NCBI RefSeq assembly: GCF_004803715.2
Contig: NZ_CP039383.2
Coordinates: 2,728,001 to 2,792,000, forward strand
DNA: 64,000 nt
Direction: 5' to 3'
Source: Luteimonas yindakuii
GTDB taxonomy: Bacteria > Pseudomonadota > Gammaproteobacteria > Xanthomonadales > Xanthomonadaceae
Under the pieces are notes generated by a model that searched no databases, was not told the origin of the DNA, and saw only the letters and a program-made list of their open reading frames with translations. A program made the position numbers and the translations under genes. How positions within the stretch are numbered: position 1 is the stretch's first letter; each line of letters begins with the position of its first letter. Of this stretch, positions 16,317 to 33,382 are shown piece after piece.

Positions 16317-16394
16317 CAGGCACCACCGCTGCGCACACGCCGAATCAAACCCGGTTTCTTCCTGATCGAGGGGAGCTCGTCAGCATTCCGGGTG

Positions 16395-16822
16395 GCCCGC
16401 CACGGCCACAGGGGGATGCCCAGCCGGATATCTCCGCGTCCTGCTCCCACATCCGGCCGCCGGCCATCCATGGCCGGCTCTGGACATCCCCCTGCGGCCG
16501 CGGCGCGCTCCGACCTGTCGGCGCGTCTGGGAGAAGGTCAACGACGAAGGACGTCACGCCGTGATGGCAGTCGACGACTTCAGCTGCGCCGCTGTTGACT
16601 TCCATGCGGACTGCCGAACGCGCGAACGTGGTCGGCTGCAGGCGACGCAGCAGGAACCGCTGTTGATCCCGTCACCGGAGCCTGCGGACGCCTGAGCCCG
16701 TCGCGTGCACCGGGGGGTGTGCGGACAGCCGGCCATGGATGGCCGGCGGCCGGCCGTGGTAGCTGGACGCGGACTCCGGCCGGGGGAGCACACCCCCCGG
16801 TGCGCGCGGCGGGCAGCGCGGA
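16395..16822. repeat. double-hairpin intergenic element, copy 1
   Basis: The element consists of two hairpins. Hairpin A (16409-16494, 86 bases) is closed by CAGGGGGATG / CATCCCCCTG. Hairpin B (16707-16803, 97 bases) is closed by a perfect 16-bp inverted repeat, GCACCGGGGGGTGTGC and its complement. The roughly 60-base interior of B is the reverse complement of that of A (both hold the GGCCATGGATGGCCGGC type core and a GCTGGACGCGGA-like segment). The spacer is 212 bases. Copy 2 at 32478 has the same hairpin lengths. It occupies most of the 668-base gene-free stretch 16314-16981; the rest shows nothing I recognise except the promoter at 16926. Confidence 0.85.
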
Positions 16823-16925
16823 TCACAACGAAGCACTCCCGGGAACATTGCAGCCACGCCATCGCCTGTCAGTACTCGGCCAGTGATCTTCACTTCGCCC
16901 GCAGCAGCCATGCCGCCCCTCCGCG

Positions 16926-16953
16926 TTGAAACATAAACATATGTAGATATCAT
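16926..16953 (+). promoter_or_regulatory. zinc exporter promoter with probable ArsR/SmtB operator
   Basis: A -35 TTGAAA (16926-16931) and -10 TATCAT (16948-16953) are 16 bases apart. Over them lies an AT-rich imperfect inverted repeat, ACATAAACAT / ATGTAGATAT (16931-16950, 7 of 10 pairs), in otherwise very GC-rich DNA. ArsR/SmtB zinc repressors bind such inverted repeats across promoters and leave on binding zinc. The repressor encoded at 18010 is the obvious candidate. Confidence 0.65.
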
Positions 16954-16981
16954 CGCTACGACCATCCCAGTACCGCCGGCC

Positions 16982-18022
16982 ATGACCCCCGACCCCCACC
17001 ACCAGCATCGACCCCACCCCGCCGCGGCCTCGCCCTGCGGCGATGGGCACGGTCACGGGCATGGCGACGATCACCACTCCGCCGGCCACGCGCACGTCGG
17101 CCATGACCACGGCCATGCGCACGCAGTGTCGGCACGCAACGAGAAGGTGGTCCTGACCGCGCTGGTGCTGACGGCGACGTTCATGGTGGTCGAGGTGATC
17201 GGCGGAGTGATCTCCGGCTCGCTGGCCCTGATCGCCGATGCCGGCCACATGCTCACCGATGCCGCCGCGCTGGGGCTGGCCTGGGCGGGTTTCCGCATCG
17301 GCCGCCGCGCCTCGGATGCACGCCGCACCTTCGGCTACATGCGGCTGGAGGTGCTCGCCGGCCTGGTCAATGCGCTGACCCTGTTCGCGCTGGTGGCGTG
17401 GATCCTGTGGGAGGCATTGCAGCGCCTGCGCGACCCGGGCGAGGTGCTGGCGGGCCCGATGCTGGTGGTGGCGGTGGCCGGGCTGCTGGTGAACCTGGCG
17501 GTGTTCGCGATCCTGCATCGCGGCGACCGCGACCACGTCAACATCCGCGGCGCGATGCTGCACGTGCTGGGCGACCTGCTCGGCTCGGTCGCCGCCATCA
17601 TCGCCGCGCTGGTGATCCACGCCACCGGCTGGATGGCGATCGACCCGATCCTGTCGGCGCTGGTCTGCCTGCTGATCCTGCGCAGCGCGTGGTCGCTGCT
17701 GCGCGGTGCGTTCCACATCCTGATGGAGGGCGCGCCACCGGATATCGACGTGCATGCATTGCGCGACCACCTGCTCAGCGCCGTGCCGGGCGTCACCGAA
17801 GTGCAGCATGTGCATGTGTGGTCGATCACCTCCGGGCGCGTACTCGCCACGCTTGAGCTCGGTCTCGACGGCGGCGTCCATCCCGGCACCACGGTGGCTA
17901 CCGTCAAGCGCGAACTGGCCGAACGCTTCGGCATCGGCCACGCCACGGTGGAGGTGCTGTGCGAACCACGCGGCGGCTGCGCGCTGGAGCGCACGCCGGC
18001 ATCGACGGGATGCGGGCATTGA
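16982..18022 (+). CDS. CDF family zinc (divalent cation) exporter
   Basis: A 346-residue inner-membrane exporter of the CzcD/ZitB group that swaps cytoplasmic zinc (or Co/Cd) for protons. A very His-rich N-terminal tail (about residues 5-48) is followed by six membrane helices. The intramembrane metal site is visible as HxxxD in ADAGHMLTDAA (helix 2) and HVLGD (helix 5), the arrangement of zinc-selective members. A soluble C-terminal domain (HVWSITSGRVLATLEL) follows. The gene overlaps the repressor gene by 13 bases, and an AT-rich operator-like site lies on its promoter. Confidence 0.93.
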   Translation: MTPDPHHQHRPHPAAASPCGDGHGHGHGDDHHSAGHAHVGHDHGHAHAVSARNEKVVLTALVLTATFMVVEVIGGVISGSLALIADAGHMLTDAAALGLAWAGFRIGRRASDARRTFGYMRLEVLAGLVNALTLFALVAWILWEALQRLRDPGEVLAGPMLVVAVAGLLVNLAVFAILHRGDRDHVNIRGAMLHVLGDLLGSVAAIIAALVIHATGWMAIDPILSALVCLLILRSAWSLLRGAFHILMEGAPPDIDVHALRDHLLSAVPGVTEVQHVHVWSITSGRVLATLELGLDGGVHPGTTVATVKRELAERFGIGHATVEVLCEPRGGCALERTPASTGCGH

Positions 18023-18312
18023 TCAGCGCTGACGACCGCATCGACACCATCGCCGCCACCTACCGGCTGCTCGGCGATCCCACCCGCCTGCGCGTGCTGC
18101 TGGCCTGCCTCGACGGCCCGATCGCCGTCGGTGACATCGCCACACGCACCGGCGCCTCGCAGCCGCTGGTCAGCCACCACCTGCGGCTGCTGCGCGGCGC
18201 ACGCCTGGTGCGCGGCGAACGCCGCCAGCGGCAGGTGTTCTACAGCACCGCGGATGCGCATATCCGCGACATGCTCATCGACATGCTCGAACACGTGGCG
18301 GAGCCGCAGTAG
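18010..18312 (+). CDS. ArsR/SmtB family zinc-responsive repressor
   Basis: A 100-residue winged-helix repressor. The recognition helix region reads TRTGASQPLVSHHLRLLRGARLV. The C-terminal helix holds DAHIRDMLIDMLEHVAE, which fits exactly the alpha-5 zinc pattern DxHx10HxxE of SmtB/CzrA-type sensors; no cysteine ELCVCD arsenic-type site is present. ATG at 18010 overlaps the exporter gene end, so the two are translationally linked. It most likely represses this operon until zinc is in excess. Confidence 0.9.
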   Translation: MRALISADDRIDTIAATYRLLGDPTRLRVLLACLDGPIAVGDIATRTGASQPLVSHHLRLLRGARLVRGERRQRQVFYSTADAHIRDMLIDMLEHVAEPQ

Positions 18313-18397
18313 TCCACCCGCGTGCATGCCCGGCCTCCACGGCCGCTTCGCCAGCACGCCGCCACGCTGCAGCCATCGCCGCTCTGCGAGCACGTCC

Positions 18398-19204
18398 ATG
18401 TCGATCGTTCCCGCTTCGCTTCCCTGGCTTCCACGCCCCCTGGCGGGGCGCGTGGTACTCGTTACCGGTGGTGCGCAGGGCATCGGCCGCGCGATCGCGC
18501 AGGCGGTGCTCGGCGCCGGCGGCCGCGTGGCCATCGGCGACCTCGATGCCGATGCAGGACGCGCCTGCCTCGCCGAATGGAACGCCGGCGACCACGCACT
18601 GTTCCGTCGCGTCGATGTCATGCGCGAACGCAGCGTGGCGGCGTTCGTCGAGGCCGCGCTGGCACGCTTCGGCCGCATCGACGGCGTGGTCAACAACGCC
18701 GGCGTGGTCGATCCGGTAGTGCCACCGCTGCCGGAGCTCGACTTCGCGGAGTGGAACCGGCGCCTGTCCAGCCTGCATGGTGCGTTCCTGTGCATTAGAC
18801 ATGCACTGCCCGCACTCGCGCGCAGCGAAGGCGGCGGTGCGGTCGTCAACATCGCCTCGACCCGCGCGCACCAGTCCGAGCCGCATGGCGAAGCCTATGC
18901 CGCGGCCAAGGGCGGACTGGTCGCCTTCACCCATGCGCTGGCGATCAGCGCCGGGCCACGGGTGCGGGTGAACTGCATCAGCCCGGGCTGGATTGCCACC
19001 GAAGCGTGGCAGGCACCGTCACGGCGGCGGCGGCCGAAACTGTCGCGCGGCGACCATGCGCAACATCCGGCCGGTCGCGTCGGGACGCCAGAAGACATCG
19101 CGACACTCGCGGTGTACCTGCTCGCCCCGGCGCTGTCGGGCTTCACCACCGGCCAGGAGTTCATCGTCGACGGCGGGATGTCGCGGAAGATGCAGTACGC
19201 CTGA
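18398..19204 (+). CDS. SDR family oxidoreductase
   Basis: A 268-residue short-chain dehydrogenase. The Rossmann glycine motif is VTGGAQGIGRAIA; NNAG follows; the catalytic Ser is in NIASTRA and the YxxxK pair in EAYAAAKGG. The C-terminal ISPGWIATE region is typical. The N-terminus IGDLDAD, with an acidic residue at the end of strand 2, points to NAD(H) preference. The substrate is unknown. It lies 85 bases after the zinc repressor and could be read from the same promoter, but no functional link is evident. Confidence 0.85.
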   Translation: MSIVPASLPWLPRPLAGRVVLVTGGAQGIGRAIAQAVLGAGGRVAIGDLDADAGRACLAEWNAGDHALFRRVDVMRERSVAAFVEAALARFGRIDGVVNNAGVVDPVVPPLPELDFAEWNRRLSSLHGAFLCIRHALPALARSEGGGAVVNIASTRAHQSEPHGEAYAAAKGGLVAFTHALAISAGPRVRVNCISPGWIATEAWQAPSRRRRPKLSRGDHAQHPAGRVGTPEDIATLAVYLLAPALSGFTTGQEFIVDGGMSRKMQYA

Positions 19205-19238
19205 GCGGTGCGTCGGGAAGACCGGCGCACCACCGGGG

Positions 19239-19955
19239 TCACTTGCGCGCTGCCGTGGAAGACGTGCGCGGCAGTGTCCGCAGCAGCGGCTCGAGCAACG
19301 CCTGCGCATGGGCGAGTGAATCGACGATGCGGTGGCCGAGCGCGCGCACGTCGTCGTCCGGCGCCAGCAGGTCGGGGACCTGCACCGGCGTCATGCCGGC
19401 CGCGAGTGCGGCGCGCACGCCGGTCGGCGAATCCTCCAGCACCAGGCAGTGCGCGGGATCCACGCCCAGTTGCCGTGCCGCCAGCAGATAGACATCCGGT
19501 GCCGGCTTGGGACGCGCAACGTCGCTGCTGGTGCACACCGCATCGAACCGCCACAGCAGGTCCGCCGCCGCGAGCTTGCGCAGCGCCAGCGGCCGCCAGG
19601 TGGACGTGGCCACCGCGCGCGGGATGCCATGCGCGGCCAGCAACTCGAGCAGGGCGACGATGCCCGGCCGGTGCGCGATGCCGGCTTCGGCGACCGCGAT
19701 GTACAGCGCATGCCCGCGCGCCAGTACCGCCTGCGCGGCAGCGTCACCGATCAGGGCACCAAACTGCCGACGACACACCTCGTCCGAATGGCCGATCAGG
19801 CCCAGCCACCAGTCGTGGTCGATCCGCATGCCGTGTTCGGTGGCCGCGGTGCGCAGCGCATCGAGGATCGCGCGCTCGCTGTCGAGCATCAGCCCGTCCA
19901 TGTCGAAGATCACGGCCGCCGGCAGGAACGGCAGCGGTGCGACCGGACTCATCAC
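19239..19955 (-). CDS. HAD-superfamily hydrolase (phosphatase/phosphoglucomutase-like)
   Basis: A 238-residue HAD subfamily IA protein. Motif I is FDMDGLMLDSE with the two aspartates; motif II is probably ATSTW; the motif III lysine is in ARPKPAPD; motif IV is LVLEDSPTG. The cap domain lies between motifs I and II. Relatives hydrolyse or isomerise sugar phosphates and similar small molecules; the substrate cannot be told. It starts 4 bases inside the rsuA end, so it is the third gene of a coupled rsmC-rsuA-HAD unit. Confidence 0.88.
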   Translation of the reverse strand: MMSPVAPLPFLPAAVIFDMDGLMLDSERAILDALRTAATEHGMRIDHDWWLGLIGHSDEVCRRQFGALIGDAAAQAVLARGHALYIAVAEAGIAHRPGIVALLELLAAHGIPRAVATSTWRPLALRKLAAADLLWRFDAVCTSSDVARPKPAPDVYLLAARQLGVDPAHCLVLEDSPTGVRAALAAGMTPVQVPDLLAPDDDVRALGHRIVDSLAHAQALLEPLLRTLPRTSSTAARK

Positions 19956-20656
19956 GACGTCGCGAACAGCGCCTGCACGTCGTCGGCTGTGAGCGCGCGC
20001 CAGTGGCCCTCGTCGAGTCCGTCGAGCGCAAGGCCACCGACGCGTTCGCGACGCAACGCGACCACGTGGTTGCCGACCGCGGCGAACATCCGTCGCACCT
20101 GGTGGTAGCGGCCTTCGTGCAGGACCAGCCGCGCCTGTCGCGGACCGAGCACGTCGAGTTCGGCAGGCAGCAGCGGCTTGTCGTCGGATTCCAGCAGCAA
20201 CGTGCCGCTGGCGAACAGCTGCACTTCGTCGCCACGCAGGTCGGCGTCGAGGGTGGCGACATAGACCTTGGGCAGCGCCGACTTCGGCGAGATGATCCGG
20301 TGCAGCAGTGCGCCGTCATCGGTCATCAGCAGCAGGCCGGAAGTGTCGCGATCGAGACGCCCGACCGGTGACAGTACCGGGTTGCGCAGGCGGAAGCGCG
20401 GCGGCAGCAGGTCGTAGATCACCCGACCCGGGTCCCTGGTCGAGCAGGTGTAGCCGACCGGCTTGTGCAGCATCAACGCCAGGCCCTGCGGCGGATCCAG
20501 CGGCTCGCCATCGACGAACACCGCGCCTGGATCGACCACGTCATCGGCGTACAGCACGTCGCCGGCGGCATCGGTCACCCGGCCCTGGCGGCACAGCAGC
20601 ATCGCCTGCTTGCGGCTGCCGTAGCCGAGGTTGGCGAGCAGGCGCAGCAGCTTCAT
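19952..20656 (-). CDS. rsuA: 16S rRNA pseudouridine(516) synthase
   Basis: A 234-residue RsuA/RluB-family enzyme that converts one uridine of 16S rRNA to pseudouridine. An N-terminal S4-like RNA-binding part (LANLGYGSRKQAMLLCRQGRV) precedes the catalytic domain, in which GRLDRDTSGLLLMTDD carries the catalytic aspartate. The C-terminal HQVRRMFAAVGN is conserved. It overlaps rsmC by 4 bases (ATGA) and the HAD gene by 4 bases. The choice of rsuA over rluB or rluE is from length and overall pattern. Confidence 0.82.
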   Translation of the reverse strand: MKLLRLLANLGYGSRKQAMLLCRQGRVTDAAGDVLYADDVVDPGAVFVDGEPLDPPQGLALMLHKPVGYTCSTRDPGRVIYDLLPPRFRLRNPVLSPVGRLDRDTSGLLLMTDDGALLHRIISPKSALPKVYVATLDADLRGDEVQLFASGTLLLESDDKPLLPAELDVLGPRQARLVLHEGRYHQVRRMFAAVGNHVVALRRERVGGLALDGLDEGHWRALTADDVQALFATS

Positions 20657-21681
20657 GCGCGGCGCCTCGCGGTGATCACCTTGAACGCACCGCGCCCGGC
20701 CACGCTACGCACGTCGGTGAAGCCTTCCGCCAGCACCTGCTCGTACGGCAGTTGCCGGTTGGCGACCAGCCACAGTTCGCCACGTGGCCGCAGCGCCTGC
20801 GCCGCGGCGCGGACAAAGGCCTGGCCGAGTTCGGGGCGCGGCTCGCGCTGCTGCGCATGGAACGGCGGATTGCTGACGATGGCGTCGTAACGCCGCGGCA
20901 GGCCCGTGGTCACGTCGTGCCAGTGGAAGTCGAGCGTGGCGCGTGCCGCATGCGGTGCAAGGTTGCGCTCGGCCAGCGCCAGCGCGCGTGCGTCGGCTTC
21001 GTACAGATCCACCGTGCGCACGCCGGGACACTGGCGCAGCAGTGCATCGGCAATCACGCCGGCGCCGGCCCCGAGGTCGGCGACATCGCCGGCCAGGGTC
21101 GAGGGCAGGTGTTCGATCAGCAATGCGGTGGCGGCGTCGATGCGGTCCCAGGCGAACACGCCCGGCCGGCTCCACCAGCCCGGCGCGACTTCGCGCACCG
21201 CGTCGCCCTGGCGCCACTGCGCCGCCAACGCGGCATCACCGCCGCCACCGGCACGCGCCCAGAACACCCGGCATTTGTGCTTGGAAAGCGACGCCACCGG
21301 CCCGGCGATGCGGGCGAAATCGGCTTCGGCCGACTTCGCGCCCTCGTCGTTGGCCACACTGACCACCACGGTGGCGCCGTCGTCGGCCAGCGCAAGCGCC
21401 TGCGCGTACAGGGCGCGCGCCTCGTCGCGCTGGCGCGGCGGCAGCAGCAGCACCAGCGGCCAGCGCCGGCCGGCGTCGGCGTCCAGCGAAACCGCGAAAC
21501 CGGCACGCTCCAGCGCCTGCGCCTGCGGGCGGAAGGTCTGCACGCAGGCCAGCTGCGGCCACTGCGAGGCATGCAGGGCAACCCCCGCACGCGCACCCAG
21601 GAACAGCGCATCCGGCACGCGCGCGATGCGTCCTTCGTTGAACGGCAGCATCAACGCATCGAGGGCGGAATCACTGGGCAC
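20653..21681 (-). CDS. rsmC: rRNA guanine-N2 methyltransferase, RsmC/RlmG-like
   Basis: A 342-residue two-domain methyltransferase. The C-terminal SAM-binding fold shows VADLGAGAGVIADALL (motif I) and SNPPFHA (motif IV, typical of N-methylation of guanine or adenine). The N-terminal half is a degenerate copy of the fold that binds RNA, as in RsmC. It is likely to methylate G1207 of 16S rRNA. Coupling with rsuA, another 16S modification gene, supports the role. RlmG is the alternative. Confidence 0.82.
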   Translation of the reverse strand: MPSDSALDALMLPFNEGRIARVPDALFLGARAGVALHASQWPQLACVQTFRPQAQALERAGFAVSLDADAGRRWPLVLLLPPRQRDEARALYAQALALADDGATVVVSVANDEGAKSAEADFARIAGPVASLSKHKCRVFWARAGGGGDAALAAQWRQGDAVREVAPGWWSRPGVFAWDRIDAATALLIEHLPSTLAGDVADLGAGAGVIADALLRQCPGVRTVDLYEADARALALAERNLAPHAARATLDFHWHDVTTGLPRRYDAIVSNPPFHAQQREPRPELGQAFVRAAAQALRPRGELWLVANRQLPYEQVLAEGFTDVRSVAGRGAFKVITARRRA

Positions 21682-21826
21682 ACGGACACCGGGCAGGACG
21701 GAACAGACCGTGCATTCTACGCGGCGGCGTCTCGTGGCTCCGCGTCAACGCCGCAGGGCGCATCGTTTTCATCGTTCGGCAACGTCGGCGGCGGCACCCT
21801 GCAGGCATCCCCCAAGGAGACAGTCC

Positions 21827-22087
21827 ATGCGCGCTCTTTTCGTTGGCGGCACGGTCGACAACAGCGAACTCGACATCGAGGGCGATACCCCGCCGACCCA
21901 CTACCCGCCCGATACCGGCACAGGCACGCCGCGTTACCGGCTGCGCCGGATCGGTCGCCACGCCGACACCATCGCGTACGTGGTCTACGGCGCACCGGAA
22001 CTGCCCGACGAGGAGGTGCAGCGCGTGGCCGAAGAGCGTGCCTATGCGCGCCGGTTCGAGGCGGAGGAATCAGCCGCGGCGGACTGA
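21827..22087 (+). CDS. small conserved-looking protein of unknown function
   Basis: An 86-residue hydrophilic protein, preceded by the clear ribosome site AAGGAGA seven bases before the ATG. The N-terminal half holds a Thr/Pro segment (DTPPTHYPPDTGTGTPRYRL) and the C-terminal half is acidic and helical. No signal peptide, cysteine or known motif. It is a single gene divergent from rsmC and convergent with the ABC permease. I do not recognise the family. Confidence 0.7.
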   Translation: MRALFVGGTVDNSELDIEGDTPPTHYPPDTGTGTPRYRLRRIGRHADTIAYVVYGAPELPDEEVQRVAEERAYARRFEAEESAAAD

Positions 22088-22110
22088 GCCGCAGACACGA
22101 CGCGGAGTCA

Positions 22111-22128
22111 GCGCATCCCCGGATGCGC
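22111..22128. terminator. palindrome between convergent genes
   Basis: The perfect inverted repeat GCGCATCC / GGATGCGC with a 2-base centre lies 23 bases after the stop at 22087 and before the ybbP stop. It may terminate either direction. The next bases (GCTTCGCGCCTACCCGGGC) resemble the GTAGCCCGG/CCGGGCTAC repeats seen in related genomes. Confidence 0.4.
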
Positions 22129-22169
22129 TTCGCGCCTACCCGGGCGACACGGCAGACCGCTCCCCGCGC

Positions 22170-24668
22170 TCAGCCCTGCAGCTCGCGCAGCGTCAGCGCC
22201 GGTGGCGCATCGAGCACGCGGCGGGTGGCGACCAGTCCCGCGACCAGCGTCACCGCCATGCCGAGCGCGCCGCCGACCGCGGCCATCGCCCAGTTGGGCT
22301 GCCACGGCAGGTCGAACACGCGGGTGGCGACCACGCCCGACAGCACCGACGCGGCGATCGCCGCCACCAGCCCGGACAGCAGGCCGATCGCGGCGAACTC
22401 CGATGCCTGCGCGGAGCGCAGCTGGCGCCGGCTGGCACCGAGCACGCGCATCACCCCGCCTTCGAGCAGGCGCTCGTCCTGGCTGGCGCTGACCGCCGCC
22501 AGCAGCACCAGCACGCCGGCCACCATCGAGAACCAGAACACCGCCTGCACCACCACCGAGACCTGGTCGGCGGTGGTGCGCACCTGCGCCAGCACCGCGT
22601 CGATGTCGATCACCGACAGGTTGGGGAAGGCGCCGACGAGATCCGCGGTGAAGCGCACGTCGTCGGCCGGCACGCTGACCGCGGTGATATGGCTGGCCGG
22701 GAAGCCGTCGAGCGTGCCCGGGGATGCCAGCACGAAGAAGTTCGGACGGAAGCTTTCCCAGTCGATGGTGCGCAGGCTGGTGATCGGCGCCTCGACGGTG
22801 CGACCGGCGATATCGAAGGTGATGCGGTCGCCCACCTGCCAGCCGAGCTGGCGGGCGAAGTTCTCCTCCACCGAGAACTCCGGCGCGGTCGCGTCCGCCG
22901 CCCAGATACGACCGTCGACCACGCGGTTGTCATCGCGCAGCGCCGCCACCGTCGACAGGTTGAACTCGCGCTCGGCACGCCGCCGGGTCTGGCCGTCCTC
23001 GTCGGCATAGGTCTGCGTGGTGACCGCTTCGCCGTTGCGCGCGATGAAGCGTGCGCGGACCATCGGGAACAGCTCCGGTGCATCCAGCCCGCGCTCGGCC
23101 ATGAACGCACGCACGGGATCGAGCTGCGGCGGCTGCACGTTGACGATGAAACGGTTGGGCGCGGTTTCCGACAGCTGCAGCTGCCAGCGGTCGAGCAGGT
23201 CGGTGCGCACGAAGGTCAGCAGCAGCAGCGCCATCAGCCCGAGCCCGAGCGCGGAGACCTGCGCGATGCTGGTGCCGGCGCGCCGGCTTACGTTCGCCAG
23301 GCCGTAGCGCAGGCCGCCACGCAGGCGCCCGCGCAGGCGGCGCACGACGACGATCAGCGCCCAGGCGATCAGCGCCAGTACCGCCAGCGTGGCGGCGATG
23401 CCGGCCAGCATCGCGCCGGCCAGGTCCGCCGAGCCGGCCTTCCACCACAGCAGCGCGCCGAGGCCGGCGAAGCCGGTCACGGCCACCACCAGCGCGGTCG
23501 GCTCCACCGGGTCGAGGTCGCGACGGATCACCCGCAGCGCCGGCACCCGGCGCAGGGCGAGCACCGGCGGCGCGCCGAACGCCAGCAGCACCACCAGTCC
23601 CACGCCTAGGCCCTGCAGCGCCGGCAACACGGTGGCGGCCGGCAGGTCGAGTTCGAGCTCGCGCGCGATCCAGCCACCGACGAACCACTGCAGCGCGAAC
23701 GCAAGCGCAATGCCGATCGCGCTCGCCAGCACGCCCAGCAGCACCAGCTCGCCGACATGGATGCCGACCAGCGTGCGCTGGCTGGCGCCGAGGCAGCGCA
23801 TCACCGCCGCGCCCGACAGGTGCCGCTCGCTGTGCCGGCGCGCGGCCATTGCCACTGCCACCGCGGCCAGGACCACCGACACCAGCGCGGCGAGGCCGAG
23901 GAAGCGGCCGGCACGGTCGAGGCCGGAGCGCACTTCCGGGCGCGCGTCCTGGATCGTCTCCAGGCGCTGGCCACGGCCGAGGGTGTCGCGCACGCCGTCG
24001 GCGAAGCCTTCCACCGCCGCGGTGTCGCCCGCCACCACCAGCCGGTAACGGATGCGGCTGCCCTCCTGCACCAGGCCGGTGGCGGGCAGGTCGGCGAGGT
24101 TGAGGAACACCTTGGGCGCGACGTTGAAGTAGTCGATCGAGGCGTCCGGCTCCTGCGCCACCAGGGCCGCGAGGCGGAAGCTCGCCTCCCCCAGCACCAC
24201 GGTGTCGCCGACGCGCGCATCGAGGGTGTCGGCACCGGCGCGGCTCAGCCACACACTCCCGGGTTCGGGGATGCCGGCGGCATCGCGCTCGGCACCGCCG
24301 GCCGCGTCGACGAGGCGGAACGCGCCGCGCAACGGGTAGCCCTCGCCGATCGCGCTGAGGTCACCCAGGCGCAGGTCGTCGCCGACCCGGATCATGCTGT
24401 CGAGCGCGACCGTTGCGGTCTGCCGCAGGCCGGCGGCGCGCGCGGCCTCGCGCACGCTGTCGTCGATCGGCGCATCCGAGCGCAGGATCGCGTCGCCGCC
24501 GAGCAGGCGGTTGGCCTGCTGCGCGAGCGCGCGTTCGGCGCGGTCGGTGACGAAGCCGACCGCGGTCACCGCCAGCACCGCCAGCACCAGTGCGGCCAGC
24601 ATGATGCGGACCTCGCCGGCGGCGAGATCGCGCCTGAACTGGATCCACGCGAGGCGTGCGGTCCTCAT
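22170..24668 (-). CDS. ybbP: ABC transporter permease, FtsX/YbbP type
   Basis: An 832-residue inner-membrane protein. After a first helix (about 20-40) comes a large periplasmic domain, then groups of helices at about 255-420 and, after a second periplasmic domain, at about 700-830: the duplicated FtsX-type layout of YbbP. Such permeases do not form a classical channel but act mechanically on lipids or envelope proteins. MRTARLAWIQFRRDL at 24668 is the natural start and overlaps the ATPase gene by 4 bases. Next to tesA, as in E. coli, where ybbA, ybbP and tesA are neighbours. Confidence 0.87.
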   Translation of the reverse strand: MRTARLAWIQFRRDLAAGEVRIMLAALVLAVLAVTAVGFVTDRAERALAQQANRLLGGDAILRSDAPIDDSVREAARAAGLRQTATVALDSMIRVGDDLRLGDLSAIGEGYPLRGAFRLVDAAGGAERDAAGIPEPGSVWLSRAGADTLDARVGDTVVLGEASFRLAALVAQEPDASIDYFNVAPKVFLNLADLPATGLVQEGSRIRYRLVVAGDTAAVEGFADGVRDTLGRGQRLETIQDARPEVRSGLDRAGRFLGLAALVSVVLAAVAVAMAARRHSERHLSGAAVMRCLGASQRTLVGIHVGELVLLGVLASAIGIALAFALQWFVGGWIARELELDLPAATVLPALQGLGVGLVVLLAFGAPPVLALRRVPALRVIRRDLDPVEPTALVVAVTGFAGLGALLWWKAGSADLAGAMLAGIAATLAVLALIAWALIVVVRRLRGRLRGGLRYGLANVSRRAGTSIAQVSALGLGLMALLLLTFVRTDLLDRWQLQLSETAPNRFIVNVQPPQLDPVRAFMAERGLDAPELFPMVRARFIARNGEAVTTQTYADEDGQTRRRAEREFNLSTVAALRDDNRVVDGRIWAADATAPEFSVEENFARQLGWQVGDRITFDIAGRTVEAPITSLRTIDWESFRPNFFVLASPGTLDGFPASHITAVSVPADDVRFTADLVGAFPNLSVIDIDAVLAQVRTTADQVSVVVQAVFWFSMVAGVLVLLAAVSASQDERLLEGGVMRVLGASRRQLRSAQASEFAAIGLLSGLVAAIAASVLSGVVATRVFDLPWQPNWAMAAVGGALGMAVTLVAGLVATRRVLDAPPALTLRELQG

Positions 24669-25378: not shown

Positions 25379-25568
25379 GCGGGATCCTGTTGCGGGCGCG
25401 GCGCGCCTGCACGGCGCCGGCATCGACATGGGGGCGTCGAGTGTACGGGCCGGCCCGCACGGTCGTGCATGTGCCACATGGGATGGAGCGGGCCGCGCCG
25501 CGCCGTCCACGCGCGGTTGTGCGCGCCGGGCCTAAGCTGTGCGGGCCCTGCCGAATGGAACCATCCGC

Positions 25569-26270: not shown

Positions 26271-26376
26271 ACATGGCGACAACTGCACGCATCGGATCCG
26301 CTACGCGGCACCGTGATCGCTTGAACGTCACCTGCCGCGCTCGCACACTGCATCGACACACCGCTGGAGCGTCGCG

Positions 26377-26949: not shown

Positions 26950-26955
26950 GCGCGG

Positions 26956-27240
26956 ATGGCGGTCTACGTCGACGATGCGGTCACGCTGTGGCGCGGGCGT
27001 CGCTGGGCCCATCTGATGGCCGACACCCTCGACGAGTTGCATGCGTTCGCGGCCGAACTGGGCATTCCGCGCCATGCCTTCCAGAACCGCACCAGCGGCG
27101 CGCACTACGACGTGCCGGCGGACCTGCGCGAACGCGCACTGGCGCTGGGCGCGGTACCGATCTCGCGGCACCGCGACCGCGAACAGGTACGCGCGGTGAT
27201 CGCCAATGCACGCGCGCAGGGGCGTGGCGAAGCGGATTAG
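26956..27240 (+). CDS. DUF4031 domain protein
   Basis: A 94-residue protein beginning MAVYVDDAVTLWRGRRWAHL, with DELHAFAAELGIPRHAFQ and HYDVPADLRERALALGA, the usual DUF4031 pattern (small proteins with conserved Asp, Trp, His and Tyr). No function is established. It lies 6 bases after the DUF3016 gene. Confidence 0.85.
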   Translation: MAVYVDDAVTLWRGRRWAHLMADTLDELHAFAAELGIPRHAFQNRTSGAHYDVPADLRERALALGAVPISRHRDREQVRAVIANARAQGRGEAD

Positions 27241-27484
27241 CCCATCCGCGCCGCGCCTTGCGCGTGTCTGCCTTCGAGCGCGTTTTGCCGGACACACGCG
27301 GAACGTGGCCATCCCGGCCCGGCCCAAGCCGGAGCGGACGCGCGAGTTCCACCACTCATGCGAGGTTGGGCAGGATGAAGGCCGTAAGCGTTTCCCGTTC
27401 ATCCGCACGCCCATCCGGTCACGTCTCTTGAACGTACGTGGCGAAACACTCGCCCCACACCTTCGCAACACGAGAGGTACCGCC

Positions 27485-27898
27485 ATGAACCGTTTCCGCA
27501 CTTCGCAAACCGCGCTCGCCCTGGCCCTGTCGGCCGGCCTCGTGTTCGCCGCTGGCACCGCGCTGGCCGACGACACACGCGCGCAGACCACGGACCGCCT
27601 GGCCAAAGCCGATTCCGACCAGCCGGTCAACGACACCTGGATCACCACCAAGGTGAAGTCGAGCCTGCTGGCCGACAGCGATGTCGCCGGCATGGACATC
27701 CGCGTGGTCACCAACAACGGCGTCGTCGGCCTGTCGGGCAATGTCGAAAGCCAGGCCCAGGCCGACCGCGCGAAGCAGATCGCGCAGGACATCGAAGGCG
27801 TATCGCGCGTCGATGATTCCGGCCTGACCGTAGGCAGCACCGATGCCAACCGCGGCAGCGACGAGAACGCGCGCGACAACACCCGCGACCGCAACTGA
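27485..27898 (+). CDS. BON domain periplasmic protein (OsmY-like)
   Basis: A 137-residue exported protein: the signal peptide ends at ALAD (about residue 29), and one BON domain follows (about 49-116; WITTKVKSSLLADSDVAGMDIRV, GVVGLSGNVESQAQADRAKQIA, GVSRVDDSGLTV). The tail is rich in Asp, Asn and Arg. BON domains bind phospholipid or envelope surfaces, and relatives are induced by osmotic stress. GAGAGGT lies before the ATG; a strong terminator follows. The 244 bases upstream contain no other gene. Confidence 0.88.
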   Translation: MNRFRTSQTALALALSAGLVFAAGTALADDTRAQTTDRLAKADSDQPVNDTWITTKVKSSLLADSDVAGMDIRVVTNNGVVGLSGNVESQAQADRAKQIAQDIEGVSRVDDSGLTVGSTDANRGSDENARDNTRDRN

Positions 27899-27936
27899 GT
27901 GCATCGACGCGGCGTGCCTGACGCCGCACGCGACAG

Positions 27937-27969
27937 AAAACGCGGCGCCTTCGGGCGTCGCGTTTTTTT
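27937..27969 (+). terminator. intrinsic terminator after the BON gene
   Basis: A 13-bp stem (AAAACGCGGCGCC / GGCGTCGCGTTTT, one mismatch) with tetraloop TTCG and a run of seven T. One of the clearest terminators in the window. Confidence 0.9.
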
Positions 27970-28107
27970 GCGGCGCCTCAACCGGACGCATACAGATTGG
28001 CCGTCGCGCGCGCTGGAAGCGCATTCACGCGACCTGCCCACAGCGGTCGCTAGCGTGTGCACCGCGTCGAGCATGGCGCGGGGACTGTTCGAGGACCACG
28101 GACCACG

Positions 28108-28827
28108 ATGCGGCGCCATCACCGCTCCTTCCTGATCGCCTGCGGGACGCTGGCGCTGCTGGCCGCCTGCGTGCGTGGCCCGCAGTCCACGCTCGATCCC
28201 GCCGGTCCCGCCGCGCATGGCATCGCGCAGACCTGGTGGCTGATGTTCTGGCTGTTCGCCGCCATCTGGCTGATGGTGATGGTGATGGTGTGCTGGGCAC
28301 TGTTCCGTGGCCGCAACACGCGTGCACTGGGCAGGCCGACGCGGCTGATCGTGGCCGGTGGCCTGCTGATGCCGACTACCGTGCTGGTCGGCCTGCTGGC
28401 CTGGGGCACCGCCACCAGCAGCCGCGTCACCGGTCTTGGCGAGACGCAGCAGCATGTGATCGACGTGGTCGGCCGGCAGTGGGAATGGGAATTCCAGTAC
28501 CGCGACGACGAAGGCCGCGTGCGCGCCACCAGCGACGTGGTCCTGCATCTGCCACGCGGCGAGATGGTGGAGTTCAACATCACCAGCGAGGACGTGGTCC
28601 ACAGCTTCTGGATCCCGCGGCTGGGCGGCAAGATGGATGCGGTGCCCGGGCGCATCAACACGCTGCGCCTGCGCGTGGATGACGACGGCGGCCGTCCGCT
28701 GCGCGGCCAGTGCGCGGAGTTCTGCGGCCTCGAGCACACCCACATGATCTTCGCCGTGCAGGTGATGGAGCCCGACGCCTGGCGCGCATGGCGCGACGGC
28801 GGCGGCACGGCCGGGACGGCACGATGA
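28108..28827 (+). CDS. coxB: cytochrome c oxidase subunit II
   Basis: A 239-residue lipoprotein-type subunit II: the lipobox LLAAC is at about residue 21, two membrane helices lie at about 40-65 and 78-100, and the periplasmic cupredoxin domain follows. The CuA ligands are complete: His in VVHSFWIP, and CAEFCGLEHTHM giving Cys, Glu, Cys, His and Met. There is no fused cytochrome c domain, so electrons must come from a separate cytochrome. ATG at 28108 is chosen because the lipoprotein signal follows directly. It overlaps coxA by 4 bases. Confidence 0.93.
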   Translation: MRRHHRSFLIACGTLALLAACVRGPQSTLDPAGPAAHGIAQTWWLMFWLFAAIWLMVMVMVCWALFRGRNTRALGRPTRLIVAGGLLMPTTVLVGLLAWGTATSSRVTGLGETQQHVIDVVGRQWEWEFQYRDDEGRVRATSDVVLHLPRGEMVEFNITSEDVVHSFWIPRLGGKMDAVPGRINTLRLRVDDDGGRPLRGQCAEFCGLEHTHMIFAVQVMEPDAWRAWRDGGGTAGTAR

Positions 28828-31355
28828 CCACCGCGCACGGCCCCGGACGCATCGACGAGGTCGAGAACCGCCGTCGGCTCGATGCGCTCGCGCAGATCTG
28901 GGGCACCGGCCGCGGCATCGTCGCCCAGCTGACCGCGGTCAACCACAGCACCGTGGCGATGCGCTTCATCGTCACCGGCCTGGCCTTCCTGCTGATCGGC
29001 GGGATGCTGTCGATGTTCATCCGCCTGCAGCTGGCGTGGTTCGGCATGGAGGTGCTGGACCCGCGACGCTACGCGCAGTTCGTGACCATGCACGGCACCA
29101 CGATGATGTTCCTGTTCGCGGTGCCGATCATGGAAGGCTTCGCGATGTACCTGGTGCCGAAGATGCTCGGCGCGCGCGACCTGCCGTTCCCGCGGATGTC
29201 GGCGTTCGGCTGGTGGTGCTACCTGTTCGGCGGCCTGTTCCTGTACGCCAGCTTCCTGTTCGATGCCGCACCCGACGGCGGCTGGTTCATGTACGTGCCA
29301 CTGACCGATGCAACCTACTCGCCCGGGCTGGGCGCGGACTTCTGGTTGATCGGGGTGACGTTTGCCGAGATCGCCGCGGTGACCGCCGCGGTCGAGCTCA
29401 TCGTCGCGATCCTGATCACCCGTGCGCCGGGCATGGGCATCCAGCGCATGCCGCTGTTCTGCTGGGCGATCCTGGTGATGGCCTTCATGATCGCGTTCGG
29501 CTTCCCGCCACTGATCCTCGCCAGCATCCTGCTGGAGATCCAGCGCGCGTTCGATTTCGCCTTCTTCGATGTGCCGCGCGGTGGCGACCCGCTGCTGTGG
29601 CAGCACCTGTTCTGGCTGTTCGGCCATCCCGAGGTCTACATCATCTTCCTGCCGGCCTCGGGCGTGGTGTCGATGCTGGTGGCCACCTTCGCGCGGCGGC
29701 CGATGGTCGGCTACACCTGGATCGTGCTGGCCTATGTCGGCACCGGCTTCCTCAGCTTCGGGTTGTGGGTGCACCACATGTACACGGTGGGCATCCCGCT
29801 GCTGGCACTCGCCTTCTTCAGCGCGGCGAGCATGGCGGTGGCGATCCCGATGGGCATCCAGGTGTTCGCCTGGATCGCCACCCTGTGGGCGGGGCGGCCG
29901 CAGTTCCGGCTGCCGATGCTGCACCTGTTCGGGTTCTTCTTCGTGTTCGTGCTCGGCGGGCTGACCGGGGTGATGCTGGCCTTCGTGCCGTTCGACTGGC
30001 AGGCGCACGACACCCATTTCGTGGTCGCGCACCTGCACTACGTGCTGATCGGCGGGTTGATGTTCCCGATGTTCGCCGGGCTGTACTACTGGCTGCCGAT
30101 GGCGAGCGGGCGGATGCCGTCGGAGAGCATCGGCCGCACCGCGTTCTGGATGGTGTTCATCGGCTTCAACCTCGCGTTCCTGCCGATGCACCTGACCGGC
30201 CTGCTCGGGCTGCCGCGCCGCGTCTACACCTACCCCGCCGACCTCAACGTCGAATGGCTCAACCTGCTGTCGACGGCGGCCGGCTTCGTGCTGGCGGTGG
30301 GCATGCTGGCGATCCTGATCGATCTCGGGCTGTCGTTCCGCCTCGGTCGCCGCGCCGCGCAGCGCAATCCGTGGGAAGCGGGCACGCTGGAGTGGGCGCT
30401 GGCATGGCCGGTACCGCACTACAACTTCGCCTCGGTGCCCGTGGTCGATGACCGCTACCCGGTGTGGTCCCGCCCCGCCCTTGCCGACGAGAGCGCACGC
30501 GCCGACGGCCTGCTCGGCGATCCACGCGATGGCCGCCGCGAGCTGCTCGGCACCGGCGTGCTCGGCGCCGAGCCCGAACAGGTCATCCGCGTCTCGCACT
30601 CGACCTGGTGGCCGCTGCTGGCGGCGCTCAACATCGCCGCGCTGCTGGCCTGCTTCATCGCCAAGGTCTACTGGGGTGCCGCACTGCTCGTGTTGCCGCT
30701 GCTGGCGATGTTCGCCGGCTGGCTGTGGACCACCGGCGACCGCCACGCCCCGGCCACCGTGGATATCGGCGATGGCCGCCTGCTGCCCACGCAGTACAGC
30801 GCGCGCAATGCGCCGGGCTGGTGGGCACTGGTGATCACCCTGCTGATAGACGGCTCGCTGTTCGCTTCGCTGGTGTTCGCCTATTTCTACCTGTGGCTGG
30901 ACACGGCGGCGTGGCCACCGCCGGGCATCGCGATTGGCTGGCTCGCCCTGCCGCTCACTGCGCTTGCGTTGCTGCTGCTGCAGGGCGTGGCGACGTGGTG
31001 GGCGGGCCGCGCGCTGCGGCGTGGTGCCATCGGTGGCACTGCGATCGCGCTGCTGGCTGCGGCTGGCCTGGGCGCGGCCTTCATCGGCGTGGAAGCCTGG
31101 GCACTGGCCGGACCGGTGGGCGTCCCGCAGGCGCATGCCTATGCCTCGGTGGTGTGGACGCTGGCCGGCTTCCACATGCTGCACGTGGCGATCGCGGCAC
31201 TGATGTCGGTGTTCATCGCCGCACGCGCACGCGCGGGCTACGTGACCGCCGTGCGCACGCTGGAGCCGCGGGTCGTGGTCGGGTTCTGGCGCTACACGGT
31301 CGGCATCGGACTGATCGCCTGGGTGGTGATCCACGTGTTTCCGAGGGTGATCTGA
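28824..31355 (+). CDS. ctaD: cytochrome c oxidase subunit I-III fusion
   Basis: The 843-residue protein joins the catalytic subunit I (to about residue 560) to subunit III (about 590-843). Haem and copper ligands are all visible: VTMHGTTMMF (haem a), GHPEVY with the CuB His, the D-channel Glu and the cross-linking Tyr, WVHHMYT (CuB), and HDTHFVVAHLHY (haem a3 and a). The subunit III part has its usual helices (LFASLVFAYFYLWLD) and ends at FHMLHVAIAALM and IHVFPRVI. Start MTTAHGPGRIDEVEN overlaps coxB by ATGA; the stop overlaps the next start by one base. Confidence 0.93.
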   Translation: MTTAHGPGRIDEVENRRRLDALAQIWGTGRGIVAQLTAVNHSTVAMRFIVTGLAFLLIGGMLSMFIRLQLAWFGMEVLDPRRYAQFVTMHGTTMMFLFAVPIMEGFAMYLVPKMLGARDLPFPRMSAFGWWCYLFGGLFLYASFLFDAAPDGGWFMYVPLTDATYSPGLGADFWLIGVTFAEIAAVTAAVELIVAILITRAPGMGIQRMPLFCWAILVMAFMIAFGFPPLILASILLEIQRAFDFAFFDVPRGGDPLLWQHLFWLFGHPEVYIIFLPASGVVSMLVATFARRPMVGYTWIVLAYVGTGFLSFGLWVHHMYTVGIPLLALAFFSAASMAVAIPMGIQVFAWIATLWAGRPQFRLPMLHLFGFFFVFVLGGLTGVMLAFVPFDWQAHDTHFVVAHLHYVLIGGLMFPMFAGLYYWLPMASGRMPSESIGRTAFWMVFIGFNLAFLPMHLTGLLGLPRRVYTYPADLNVEWLNLLSTAAGFVLAVGMLAILIDLGLSFRLGRRAAQRNPWEAGTLEWALAWPVPHYNFASVPVVDDRYPVWSRPALADESARADGLLGDPRDGRRELLGTGVLGAEPEQVIRVSHSTWWPLLAALNIAALLACFIAKVYWGAALLVLPLLAMFAGWLWTTGDRHAPATVDIGDGRLLPTQYSARNAPGWWALVITLLIDGSLFASLVFAYFYLWLDTAAWPPPGIAIGWLALPLTALALLLLQGVATWWAGRALRRGAIGGTAIALLAAAGLGAAFIGVEAWALAGPVGVPQAHAYASVVWTLAGFHMLHVAIAALMSVFIAARARAGYVTAVRTLEPRVVVGFWRYTVGIGLIAWVVIHVFPRVI

Positions 31356-31727
31356 TGCAGGCGCTGTCGCCGCACCGGTTGACCGGCATCGCCGCGCCGT
31401 GGGCGGTGTGGGCGCTGCATTTCGTCACCGTCTACAGCCTGCAGGGCGTGGTCTGCGCGGAGGACGTGCTGCGGTGGGAGCTTGCCGGTGCCGAAGCCGC
31501 CACGTGGATCCTGGTTGCGATCGGCACCGTCGCCGTGGCTGCCACCGTGTGGCTGGGGCTGCGTGGGCTGCGCGCTTGGCGCCACGCACGGCGCGACGTG
31601 CAGCCGGATGTCGCGACGCGCCGCGAACGCTTCTCGACGGCGGTCGTCGCCCTGTCCGGGCTGCTGGCCACCATCGCGATCACCTTCACCACGAATTCCC
31701 GTCCTCATGCTGCCGCCCTGTGCCTGA
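31355..31727 (+). pseudogene. small three-helix membrane gene of the oxidase operon, frameshifted at its end
   Basis: The ATG at 31355 overlaps the oxidase stop (TGATG). The protein starts MQALSPHRLTGIAAPWAVWA and has three hydrophobic helices over about 120 residues. Near the end an extra A in ACGAATTCCC (31694-31695) shifts the frame. Without it the protein would finish TTIPVLMLPPCA at a TGA (31725-31727) that overlaps the ATG of the next gene, repeating the overlap style of this operon. As given, the frame runs on through the next gene, making one 300-codon reading frame (31355-32257). Probably an assembly or accessory factor; no known name. Confidence 0.7.
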
Positions 31728-32257
31728 TGCGCAAGACCCTCGAACAACCCAAGCCCCGCACCACCACCCACTCGGTGCGCAGCCGGGTGGCGATCGCCAA
31801 GCATCCGCTGCACCCGATGCTGGTGGTCTACCCGGTCGCCCTGCTGAGCCTGGTATTCCCGGCCGACCTGCTGTCGCTGTGGTTCGACACCGTGTTCTGG
31901 TCGCAGACCGCGTTCTGGATGAACGCCGTGGGCCTGGCGATCGGCGTGGTCGCGGGCATTGCCGGCACCGCCGACATGTTCCTGATCCGCGTGGTGCGCC
32001 GGCACGTCTCGGCATGGAACCACTTCATCGTCGCGGTGATGGTGCTGGCGATGGCCGGGCTGGGCGTCTGGCTGCGCGCGCCGGATCCCGCTGCCGCGGT
32101 ATGGCCGTGGGGCCTGCTGCAGTCGGGCGTGCTGTTGCTGCTGGTAATGATCGCCGGCTGGCTCGGCGGCACGCTGAGCTTCCGCCATGGCATCGGCGTC
32201 TACGGCGAAGGCAATCCGCACGAGCACGAAGCCGACGACAAGCCGCCGGCGGAGTGA
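31727..32257 (+). CDS. DUF2231 family membrane protein
   Basis: A 176-residue membrane protein. HPLHPMLVVYPVALL is the typical DUF2231 opening, followed by four hydrophobic helices, with GIAGTADMFLI and AWNHFIVAVMVLA between them, and a His/Glu-rich cytoplasmic tail. Function unknown; relatives often sit near respiratory genes. ATG at 31727 (MRKTLEQPKP) is inferred; in the present sequence it is in the same open frame as the upstream gene because of the base insertion described there. Confidence 0.82.
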   Translation: MRKTLEQPKPRTTTHSVRSRVAIAKHPLHPMLVVYPVALLSLVFPADLLSLWFDTVFWSQTAFWMNAVGLAIGVVAGIAGTADMFLIRVVRRHVSAWNHFIVAVMVLAMAGLGVWLRAPDPAAAVWPWGLLQSGVLLLLVMIAGWLGGTLSFRHGIGVYGEGNPHEHEADDKPPAE

Positions 32258-32477
32258 GTCCGCGGCCGTTGATCCGGATGTCTGCGCGACGGCGCGCAAC
32301 CTGATGGGCGGAATGAGCGTCTGATGTTCTCCGGATCGGCGGCGTTCCTGTCGAACCAGAGCAGCGGTTTCAGCTGGAACCGGGAAAGGGGGTTTGGCTG
32401 GCACCGATCGAGCAGGTGTTCACCAGGGTGACGTGAGCGTCCTCCGCATGGGCGGCGGTTGGCTGGCACCGGGCCAG
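32258..32477. other. gene-free stretch before repeat copy 2
   Basis: I see no gene, terminator or promoter that I can support. The stretch holds two GGTTGGCTGGCACCG-like segments (32392-32406 and 32458-32472), a direct duplication of unknown meaning next to the double-hairpin element. Confidence 0.5.
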
Positions 32478-32833
32478 CCCGCCACGGCCACAGGGGGATG
32501 CCCAGCCGGATATCTCCGCGTCCAGCTACCACATCCGGCCGCCGACCATCCATGGCCGGCTCTGGACATCCCCCTGCGTCCGCGGCGGGCCCCGAGCTGG
32601 CGTCGCGTCTGGGCGAGGATCAACAGCGAAGGCAGCCGGGTGGTCTTGGCACGCGCCGCCGGCTGCAACCGCTCGGATTTCGGTGCCGAAGCCTGCGGAC
32701 GCACGAGCCCGTCGCGTGCACCGGGGGGTGTGCGGACAGCCGGCCATGGATGGCCGGCGGCCGGCCGTGGCAGCTGGACGCGGACTCCGGCCGGGGGAGC
32801 ACACCCCCCGGTGCGCGTGACGGGCAGCGCGGA
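32478..32833. repeat. double-hairpin intergenic element, copy 2
   Basis: Same design as copy 1: hairpin A at 32491-32576 (86 bases) closed by CAGGGGGATG / CATCCCCCTG, and hairpin B at 32718-32814 (97 bases) closed by the same perfect 16-bp inverted repeat. The spacer is 141 bases against 212 in copy 1. Parts of the spacer are also shared (GTCTGGG...GATCAAC...CGAAGG next to A; GCCTGCGGACGC next to B). Neither copy contains a credible gene; the reading frames across them are by-products of the GC-rich repeats. Confidence 0.85.
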
Positions 32834-33336: not shown

Positions 33337-33382
33337 GGGGTCTCCGCAAAGCGCATGCTTGATGGGCGAACGTGCTCGTCGT

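Follow-up and report, generated by a model that had tools for sequence, protein, structure and literature searches.

Two intergenic stretches in the window (the whole 64,000-nucleotide stretch of Luteimonas DNA analysed here) raise the question of what kind of element carries two large hairpins in opposite orientations and what these hairpins might do. An earlier note on this DNA described them, at 16395-16822 and 32478-32833, as a two-copy double-hairpin element. Both elements are present at these places. The closing repeats are CAGGGGGATG/CATCCCCCTG in arm A and GCACCGGGGGGTGTGC/GCACACCCCCCGGTGC in arm B, the latter a perfect match over 16 bp; the interiors of the two arms are reverse complementary, the outer stems are unlike, and the spacers are of unequal length, all as described in that note. 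The arms are not the simple hairpins that it assumed, as each is predicted to fold into a T-shaped three-way junction, and the closing stems that it quoted are real and extend further. The explanation that we consider probable is that the window elements are old MITE copies with worn ends and that the MITEs carry RNA hairpins predicted to bind CsrA/RsmA. The features of both copies are included in Table 1.

Table 1. Coordinates of the two window elements and the genes that flank them
Feature	Positions	Strand	Evidence
DUF1415 gene, upstream of copy 1	15573..16313	+	PF07209, E 2.3e-70
Left terminal inverted repeat of copy 1, worn	16351..16373	+	Loose match, <=6 edits to GGTTCTTCTCCCGATCGAGGGG, expected place
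Arm A of copy 1, T-shaped hairpin	16395..16505	- (GGA sense)	R1 match 16399-16502, 45.3 bits, E 1.6e-7; fold
Variable spacer of copy 1	16506..16694	.	75% identity to G017 orthologous copy vs arms 97%
Arm B of copy 1, T-shaped hairpin	16695..16812	+ (GGA sense)	R1 match 16704-16808, 52.5 bits, E 3.3e-9; fold
Right subterminal stretch of copy 1, conserved	16813..16834	+	Alignment to L. granuli reference element L137 ends at 16834
Cation efflux gene, downstream of copy 1, tandem arrangement	16982..18022	+	PF01545, E 4.2e-43
DUF2231 gene, left of copy 2	30464..32257	+	PF09990, E 1.3e-28
Arm A of copy 2	32477..32588	- (GGA sense)	R1 match 32481-32584, 44.2 bits, E 2.8e-7
Variable spacer of copy 2	32589..32705	.	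51% identity to G017 orthologous copy vs arms 97% and 94%
Arm B of copy 2	32706..32823	+ (GGA sense)	R1 match 32715-32819, 54.1 bits, E 1.4e-9
UPF0093 gene, right of copy 2, convergent arrangement	32872..33471	-	PF03653, E 1.2e-25

Copies, ends and insertion targets

A search of the 3.04-Mb Luteimonas genome that contains the window returned about 28 loci including both window elements (103 BLAST pieces, grouped by hand), which replaces the view of a two-copy element and rules out a single segmental duplication as its origin. Covariance model R1 found 51 arms in this genome. Many copies are also present in four other Luteimonas genomes, and a covariance model detected the T-shaped hairpin in 39 of 149 genomes sampled from the family, representing 18 of 54 genera. 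The neighbouring genes at 60 loci, called with a rough gene caller, are convergent at 29, tandem at 26, divergent at 2 and unresolved at 3, and among 20 single hairpins the upstream gene is on the same strand in 11 cases, on the opposite strand in 7 and unassigned in 2. At six orthologous loci arm identity is 87-98% and spacer identity is 32-75%, and the arms of paralogues are about as similar as those of orthologues. Judging from these identities, the conservation of the arms could be partly due to gene conversion. When G000 and G017 are compared, most loci with both flanks matched carry a copy or a remnant in both genomes; for L032, one flank has its counterpart in a part of G017 in which the search for arms found none.

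The whole unit can be seen in L. granuli and L. padinae, which have young copies. These units are mostly 350-680 bp long, with inverted repeats beginning GGTTCTTCTCCC, and by length they have no room for a transposase gene when set against the 413-446 aa frames in full-length ISL3 matches. Each arm of the young L. granuli elements is separated from the terminal repeat on its side by another 45-115 bp or so, and the unit thus reaches further out on both sides than the element ends given previously. The MITE ends are GGTTCTTCTCCCGA or ...CCCAA. Of the ISL3 elements of the genus, 4 of 16 scanned loci have GGTTCTTC[AT]CCCAA-like ends, and these span 1308-1310 bp and encode PF01610 transposases.

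Twenty-five units with two end motifs (21 MITE-like units and 4 ISL3 elements) were chosen from 36 end pairs, and the other 11 were left out because they were worn, composite or paired by chance; two of these 11 (L062 and L078) had near-duplications. The target duplication typical of ISL3 is 8 bp in length. An exact 8-bp duplication flanks 4 of 21 MITE-like units and 1 of 4 ISL3 elements, and one with a single mismatch flanks 3 of 21 and 3 of 4, respectively, although at targets rich in A or T a partial duplication is likely to arise by chance. The insertions of both MITE-like units and ISL3 elements are often within the T-tract of an intrinsic terminator, with a terminator-like flank at 16 of 25 insertions as compared to 17 of 560 random positions drawn from all DNA and not from intergenic DNA alone. 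In a further examination of 25 loci, clear terminal repeats were seen only at L231. By eye, L243 has a probable one at its right end and those of L157 and L207 are worn; the remaining loci of this set had inverted repeats at chance level only.

Because their ends and targets match those of the ISL3 insertion sequences of the genus, the units are ISL3-type MITEs. This agrees with the non-autonomous mobile unit proposed in the earlier note, as the copies are dispersed, have ISL3-like terminal inverted repeats and, in the best young units, are flanked by the target-site duplications that it recommended looking for. An ISL3 transposase search gave no match above the cut-off in G000, G016, G017 and G018 (matches below the cut-off in G000 and G017, none in G016 and G018), and the single match above the cut-off in G003 has no such end motif. 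A partner transposase with these ends was not found in the window's genome, and since a MITE may outlive its partner, this bears on the activity of the units and not on their kind. In the window, a loose match to the terminal repeat is present only at the left end of copy 1, with none at the other three ends, and a target duplication is not visible in either worn copy.

Fold and pairing bias of the arms

Both window elements fold far better than shuffled sequences (z -7.85 and -10.32, with 0 of 100 shuffles as good in each case). The stems that were examined, 26 pairs in B and 22 pairs in A, are nearly all paired in the consensus; G.U pairs occur, and A has a single A-G mismatch. Over 20 sequences both sides changed in 13 of 31 pairs, and none of 500 shuffles reached the observed percentage paired or covariation score. 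The number of additional pair types in alignment A1 is unremarkable, as 43 of 500 shuffles reach the observed value. The alignment of window-type arms (A3) was left out of the covariation analysis because gaps shift the A and B stems out of register.

The outer stems also differ in the kind of imperfect pair that they tolerate. In 62 outer stems there are 111 G.U and 22 A.C, with a G.U excess in 45 hairpins and a deficit in 2. The sign is the same in 16 exact-pattern hairpins (38 vs 9; 15 vs 0 hairpins) and in the window-type arms of the window's genome, which lie on opposite strands (34 vs 4 in B and 28 vs 3 in A). When only rare changes in window-type arms are counted, G.U and A.C number 10 vs 5 (p 0.30) and 11 vs 3 (p 0.057), which is not significant, and these p-values are optimistic because the copies are related. 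Three B arms of G003/G018 have 2 G.U and 2 A.C. A bias of G.U over A.C in one strand sense is a sign of selection on RNA rather than DNA, and these comparisons of sequence point to a folded RNA under selection. The suggestion of selection on the fold, which the earlier note had left between RNA and DNA, is thereby upheld in favor of RNA. The covariance model and search for compensatory changes that it advised show stems that covary, and these together with about 28 loci stand against the outcome that it named as fatal, namely two copies from one duplication with no compensatory change. If this is true, comparing G.U with A.C is a simple way to separate RNA-selected from DNA-selected palindromes in repeats.

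CsrA-type loops and the competing explanations

In the GGA sense the terminal loops are mostly ANGGAN or CAGGA(U/C/A)G, and the same loops are given in a review for published CsrA/RsmA (RsmE) sites. In 40 model-found hairpins GGA is fully unpaired in 104 of 178 cases and TCC in 1 of 44, as compared to 46 of 248 and 51 of 240, respectively, in 180 control segments. The hairpins have about ten times as much unpaired GGA per segment as the controls (104 in 40 vs 46 in 180). In a count made by hand from the folds, with the closing pair taken as part of the predicted terminal loop, hairpin 1 has a loop GGA in 39 of 40 arms and hairpin 2 in 37 of 40, the first value being partly built in because the R1 seeds were chosen by a pattern that fixes hairpin 1. 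The second hairpin is modified in window-type arms. The window's genome has a csrA gene encoding L4 and R44, the CsrA residues named in the review. With GGA in the terminal loops and at the junction, the arm should bind host-encoded CsrA/RsmA. Rfam searches gave no match to the window at gathering scores and none to 16300-16950 at E values up to 5, and 11 related loci gave 3 sub-threshold matches, none of which is a Csr/Rsm RNA. Xanthomonas RsmU is reported to bind RsmA even when all four of its GGA are changed (PMC7694677), and GGA therefore does not fully explain binding even where binding is proven.

In the explanation that we favor, an ISL3-family transposase would mobilise the MITE in trans and insertion would favor T-tracts of intrinsic terminators. 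Its cargo would be a pair of T-shaped RNA hairpins that are inverted relative to each other and both face outward, and the GGA-sense hairpin would offer GGA in its terminal loops (ANGGAN, CAGGANG) and at the junction for binding by CsrA/RsmA. Transcripts that pass the terminator from either flanking gene, or that start inside the unit, would carry one hairpin in the 3' region, and many copies together may act as a distributed CsrA decoy or may tether CsrA to neighbouring mRNAs. More tentatively, these MITEs may form a transposon family with a CsrA/RsmA decoy cargo, in which transposition adds and removes sites at gene ends, copy number and position tune the regulator, and such an RNA has been captured or has re-evolved more than once in separate MITE lineages across Lysobacteraceae.

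The units might also be ordinary ISL3-type MITEs with palindromic arms that matter only as DNA, in transposition or template-switch mending, and with GGA loops that have no regulatory role. Their ends, target duplications and target preference account for the spread in Luteimonas, near-identical paralogous arms are expected from a MITE or from gene conversion, and L. padinae has a second MITE family with the same ends and a different paired interior. We regard this as rather unlikely, because selection at the DNA level predicts that G.T equals A.C, in conflict with the 111 vs 22 (45 vs 2 hairpins) above, because the loops retain GGA while adjoining and stem positions vary, and because the same hairpin is found in 18 of 54 genera, often without clear ends. 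A role as RNA that is independent of CsrA, in which hairpins in 3' regions would block exonucleases or read-through as proposed for BIME/REP hairpins, would fit the RNA-type pairing bias, the strong folds and the 3'-side location (29 convergent and 26 tandem of 60 loci). A plain protective hairpin in the 3' region needs no GGA in two loops and at a junction, and the roughly tenfold excess of unpaired GGA over controls makes this role quite improbable. Transposition as single-stranded DNA by a Y1 transposase, as in REP/RAYT-type elements, was considered as well, given hairpins in inverted pairs and one Y1_Tnp match in the window's genome. That sole match, at 1360083, is in an apparently frame-broken gene (two overlapping frames) about 50 kb from the nearest R1 arms, and the young copies have inverted ends and exact 8-bp duplications that contradict such a mechanism; this reading has a very small probability and was rejected.

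Comparison with known systems

The earlier note had neither the link to ISL3 nor the spread across the family nor the CsrA-type loops. Like ISL3-family insertion sequences and the MITEs derived from them, the Luteimonas units have GGTTCTTC... terminal repeats, insert at T-tracts and, at best, are flanked by 8-bp duplications. They differ from the insertion sequences in being too short for a transposase gene and in carrying paired RNA-type hairpins. They resemble the CsrB/CsrC and RsmX/Y/Z decoys in having CAGGA(U/A/C)G and ANGGAN hairpin loops with several GGA per molecule; unlike these decoys, they are dispersed in tens of copies, T-shaped, without an Rfam match, and mobile in Luteimonas. The QMITE1 and QMITE2 elements of Coxiella burnetii are reported to be MITEs that give rise to small RNAs, with the difference that the direct repeats of QMITE1 are 2-3 nt; the main text of that paper uses neither of the terms CsrA and GGA (PMC5896051). 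ISL3, CsrA and Xanthomonas are not mentioned in a 2024 review of prokaryotic MITEs (PMC10969869), and among the open-licence literature matches listed there was nothing on CsrA-type hairpins in MITEs or on the Luteimonas repeat.

CsrA/RsmA is a global regulator, and RsmU is the only decoy RNA for it in this bacterial branch among the open-licence matches listed. If our explanation is true, a transposon spreads binding sites for an RNA-binding regulator, and the dispersed RNA with CsrA-type loops in 18 of 54 sampled genera would provide many candidate decoys or 3'-UTR sites. RsmU of Xanthomonas campestris, a related bacterium, is described as a 3'-UTR RNA that binds RsmA, is 77-117 nt long and contains three or four GGA motifs; it is present at a single locus after comEA and is reported only in Xanthomonas (PMC7694677). 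For the two R1 loci that were inspected, L233 and L235 from genus g31, the view that they are RsmU homologues was rejected, as they sit, read from the sequence, between aldolase-like and efflux-pump-like genes and not at comEA.

Structure and distribution of the elements

Both double-hairpin elements are present in the window as the earlier note described, arm A having the design of arm B reversed with unlike outer stems, and both fold far better than their dinucleotide shuffles. The arm fold is a T-shaped three-way junction, in which a long outer stem meets two hairpins, the first of them small. In the GGA sense (the strand whose loops read GGA; minus for arm A, plus for arm B) the first hairpin reads GCCGGCCAUGGAUGGCCGGC. 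R1, a covariance model of the T-shaped hairpin, matched all four window arms, both A arms on the minus strand and both B arms on the plus strand.

Coordinates of the features discussed
Feature	Sequence	Position	Remarks
Copy 1	window	16395-16822	tandem genes, 3' of a DUF1415 gene (Pfam); called divergent by the rough gene caller
Copy 2	window	32478-32833	convergent genes (Pfam)
Small repeat adjoining copy 1	window	16280-16312	CCCCTCTCCC...GGGAGAGGGG hairpin; similar stretch within the element spacers of loci L015 and L028
Single arm	L. yindakuii genome	2894694	wider type
L094	L. yindakuii genome	1358583-1361792	Y1 (RAYT-like) transposase gene, apparently frame-broken; the genome's only PF01797 match

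The description of the element as two-copy did not hold. BLAST of copy 1 against the L. yindakuii genome (one contig, 3,040,302 bases) returned 103 pieces that we grouped into about 28 loci, and the covariance model found 51 arms at 27 loci (also our grouping), of which 22 have two arms, one has three and four, including the wider-type one, have a single arm. The arm order is minus then plus in 22 of 22 two-arm loci. Across 41 genomes, counting that of the window, 12 contain element matches; five from the genus (L. yindakuii, G017, and those taken as L. padinae, L. granuli and L. colneyensis) have at least 29 matches apiece and the seven others have 1-5. Several L. colneyensis draft contigs begin inside the repeat, which seems to break short-read assemblies.

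One exact core pattern gave 76 stretches in Luteimonas, Lysobacter, Pseudoxanthomonas and other Lysobacteraceae. The R1 hairpin was found in 39 of 149 family genomes and 18 of 54 genera, which are lower bounds as strict filters were used and at most 26 candidates were scored per genome. Ten of 160 genomes from the order match, nine from the same family and one, weakly, from another (E 3.2e-4); the hairpin in the latter (L291, genome G040) is T-shaped with loops AUGGAU and CAGGGAUG.

Selection on the arms

A1, an alignment of twenty diverse hairpins, has 92.7% paired cells. Both sides have changed in 13 of 31 pairs (reached by 4 of 500 shuffles), and the covariation score is 0.307 as compared to 0.113 in shuffles (reached by 0 of 500), dropping to 0.036-0.113 when the partners are slid. 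There are 29 further pair types versus 25.7 in shuffles, 43 of 500 of which reach 29. The conservation of hairpin 1 is partly built in by the search pattern; the outer stem and hairpin 2 lie outside its demands. At six same-orientation, hand-chosen loci orthologous between L. yindakuii and G017 (L025/L101 and L027/L100 were left out), the arms are 87-98% identical, the spacers 32-75% and the 120-bp flanks 52-87%. Paralogues are about as similar as orthologues, so gene conversion may have contributed to the identity of the arms.

Selection on the palindrome as DNA predicts equal frequencies of G.T and A.C departures on either strand. In 62 outer stems read in the GGA sense with strand-symmetric scoring, there are 111 G.U and 22 A.C pairs, with more G.U in 45 hairpins, more A.C in two and equal numbers in the others. 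The 16 exact-pattern hairpins contribute 38 versus 9 (15 versus 0 hairpins) and 40 model-found hairpins 60 versus 11 (25 versus 2); the other six were counted only in the total. The same excess is seen, on both strands, in most groups of window-type arms whose stems the search could place. When each kind of position and pair is counted once, G.U exceeds A.C by 22 to 5 in arm B (66 hairpins) and 15 to 3 in arm A (36), while for kinds in at most two copies the counts (10 to 5 and 11 to 3) are not significantly different. The p-values are optimistic because the copies are related. Together with the covariation in A1, the G.U excess bears out, on the RNA side, the earlier suggestion of selection on the fold, and there is good support for selection of the arms as RNA.

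G.U versus A.C pairs in window-type arms (number of hairpins in brackets)
Group	Arm B	Arm A
L. yindakuii	34 vs 4 (20)	28 vs 3 (16)
G017	29 vs 2 (20)	33 vs 0 (16)
L. granuli	18 vs 2 (22)	2 vs 0 (1)
NML and L. arsenica loci	18 vs 1 (10)	8 vs 0 (7)
L. padinae and L. colneyensis	2 vs 2 (3)	3 vs 0 (2)

GGA loops and CsrA

Among fully unpaired trinucleotides in the 40 model-found hairpins, GGA is the most frequent (104 of 178; TCC 1 of 44), as compared to 46 of 248 for GGA and 51 of 240 for TCC in 180 stable control segments from the same loci. In the predicted folds, 39 of 40 first terminal loops and 37 of 40 second ones contain GGA. The usual first loop is AUGGAU, with ACGGAU, AGGGAU and AAGGAU also found, and second loops are mostly AGGAU, AUGGAU, CAGGACG, CAGGAAG or CAGGAGG. 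Read from the alignment, loop 2 has GGA in 19 of the 20 seeds, and the seed pattern left this loop free. The window arms retain AUGGAU in hairpin 1, and their second loop has UGGACG or CAGGACG; 5/5, 4/6, 4/5 and 3/6 of their GGA triplets have at least two unpaired bases.

According to a review (PMC7652899), CsrB repeats are CAGGA(U/A/C)G, the SELEX sequence is RUACARGGAUGU, and RsmE recognition involves an ANGGAN hexaloop. The genome search gave one match to CsrA, a global RNA-binding regulator. The best reading of the loops is that the arm RNA would bind CsrA/RsmA.

The transposon unit and its target sites

In young L. granuli copies, conserved DNA lies outside both arms and terminates in GGTTCTTCTCCCGA and its reverse complement. 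With at most one mismatch, this 14-mer has 41 occurrences in L. granuli, 15 in L. padinae, five in G017, four in L. colneyensis and one in L. yindakuii; its reversed control pattern has a single one, in L. colneyensis. Thirty-six facing end pairs were found and 25 carried forward, 11 being dropped as worn, composite or chance. An 8-bp duplication is exact in four and has one mismatch in three of 21 MITE-like (short non-autonomous transposon) units, and is exact in one and has one mismatch in three of four ISL3-family insertion sequences. The latter encode PF01610 transposases, are 1308-1310 bp long and have GGTTCTTC[AT]CCCAA-like ends. The inverted ends, the target duplications in some units and the likeness to ISL3 ends agree with the mobile unit proposed in the earlier note; there is good support for assigning the units to an ISL3-type MITE family. 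The terminal repeats of the window copies are worn and no ISL3 match above the cut-off was found in the L. yindakuii genome, so these copies look inactive.

The insertion target is common to the MITEs and the ISL3 insertion sequences: a terminator-like hairpin and T-tract adjoins 16 of 25 insertions versus 17 of 560 random positions, which were not confined to intergenic DNA. This preference helps explain the copies at gene ends. At 60 loci in three genomes, the rough gene caller gave 29 convergent, 26 tandem, two divergent and three unresolved contexts. L. yindakuii and G017 have several orthologous copies in common, some of which are oppositely oriented; at L017/L112, L023/L069 and L030/L101 the intergenic site is the same and the outer stems are reversed as well. 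The opposite orientations probably arose by inversion, or by more than one insertion into the same terminators.

Two very short two-ended units, L141 (176 bp, with an exact 8-bp duplication) and L150 (121 bp), are probably internal-deletion forms. L147-L151 of L. padinae form a second MITE family that shares the GGTTCTTCTCCC ends but has another two-arm interior, whose arms have a common conserved AAGGAGGA / GGGGGACA internal loop and unlike inner and outer stems. At L083, L087 and L088 of L. granuli, ~40-bp tandem repeats are multiplied in a subterminal part of the MITE, on its left or its right side.
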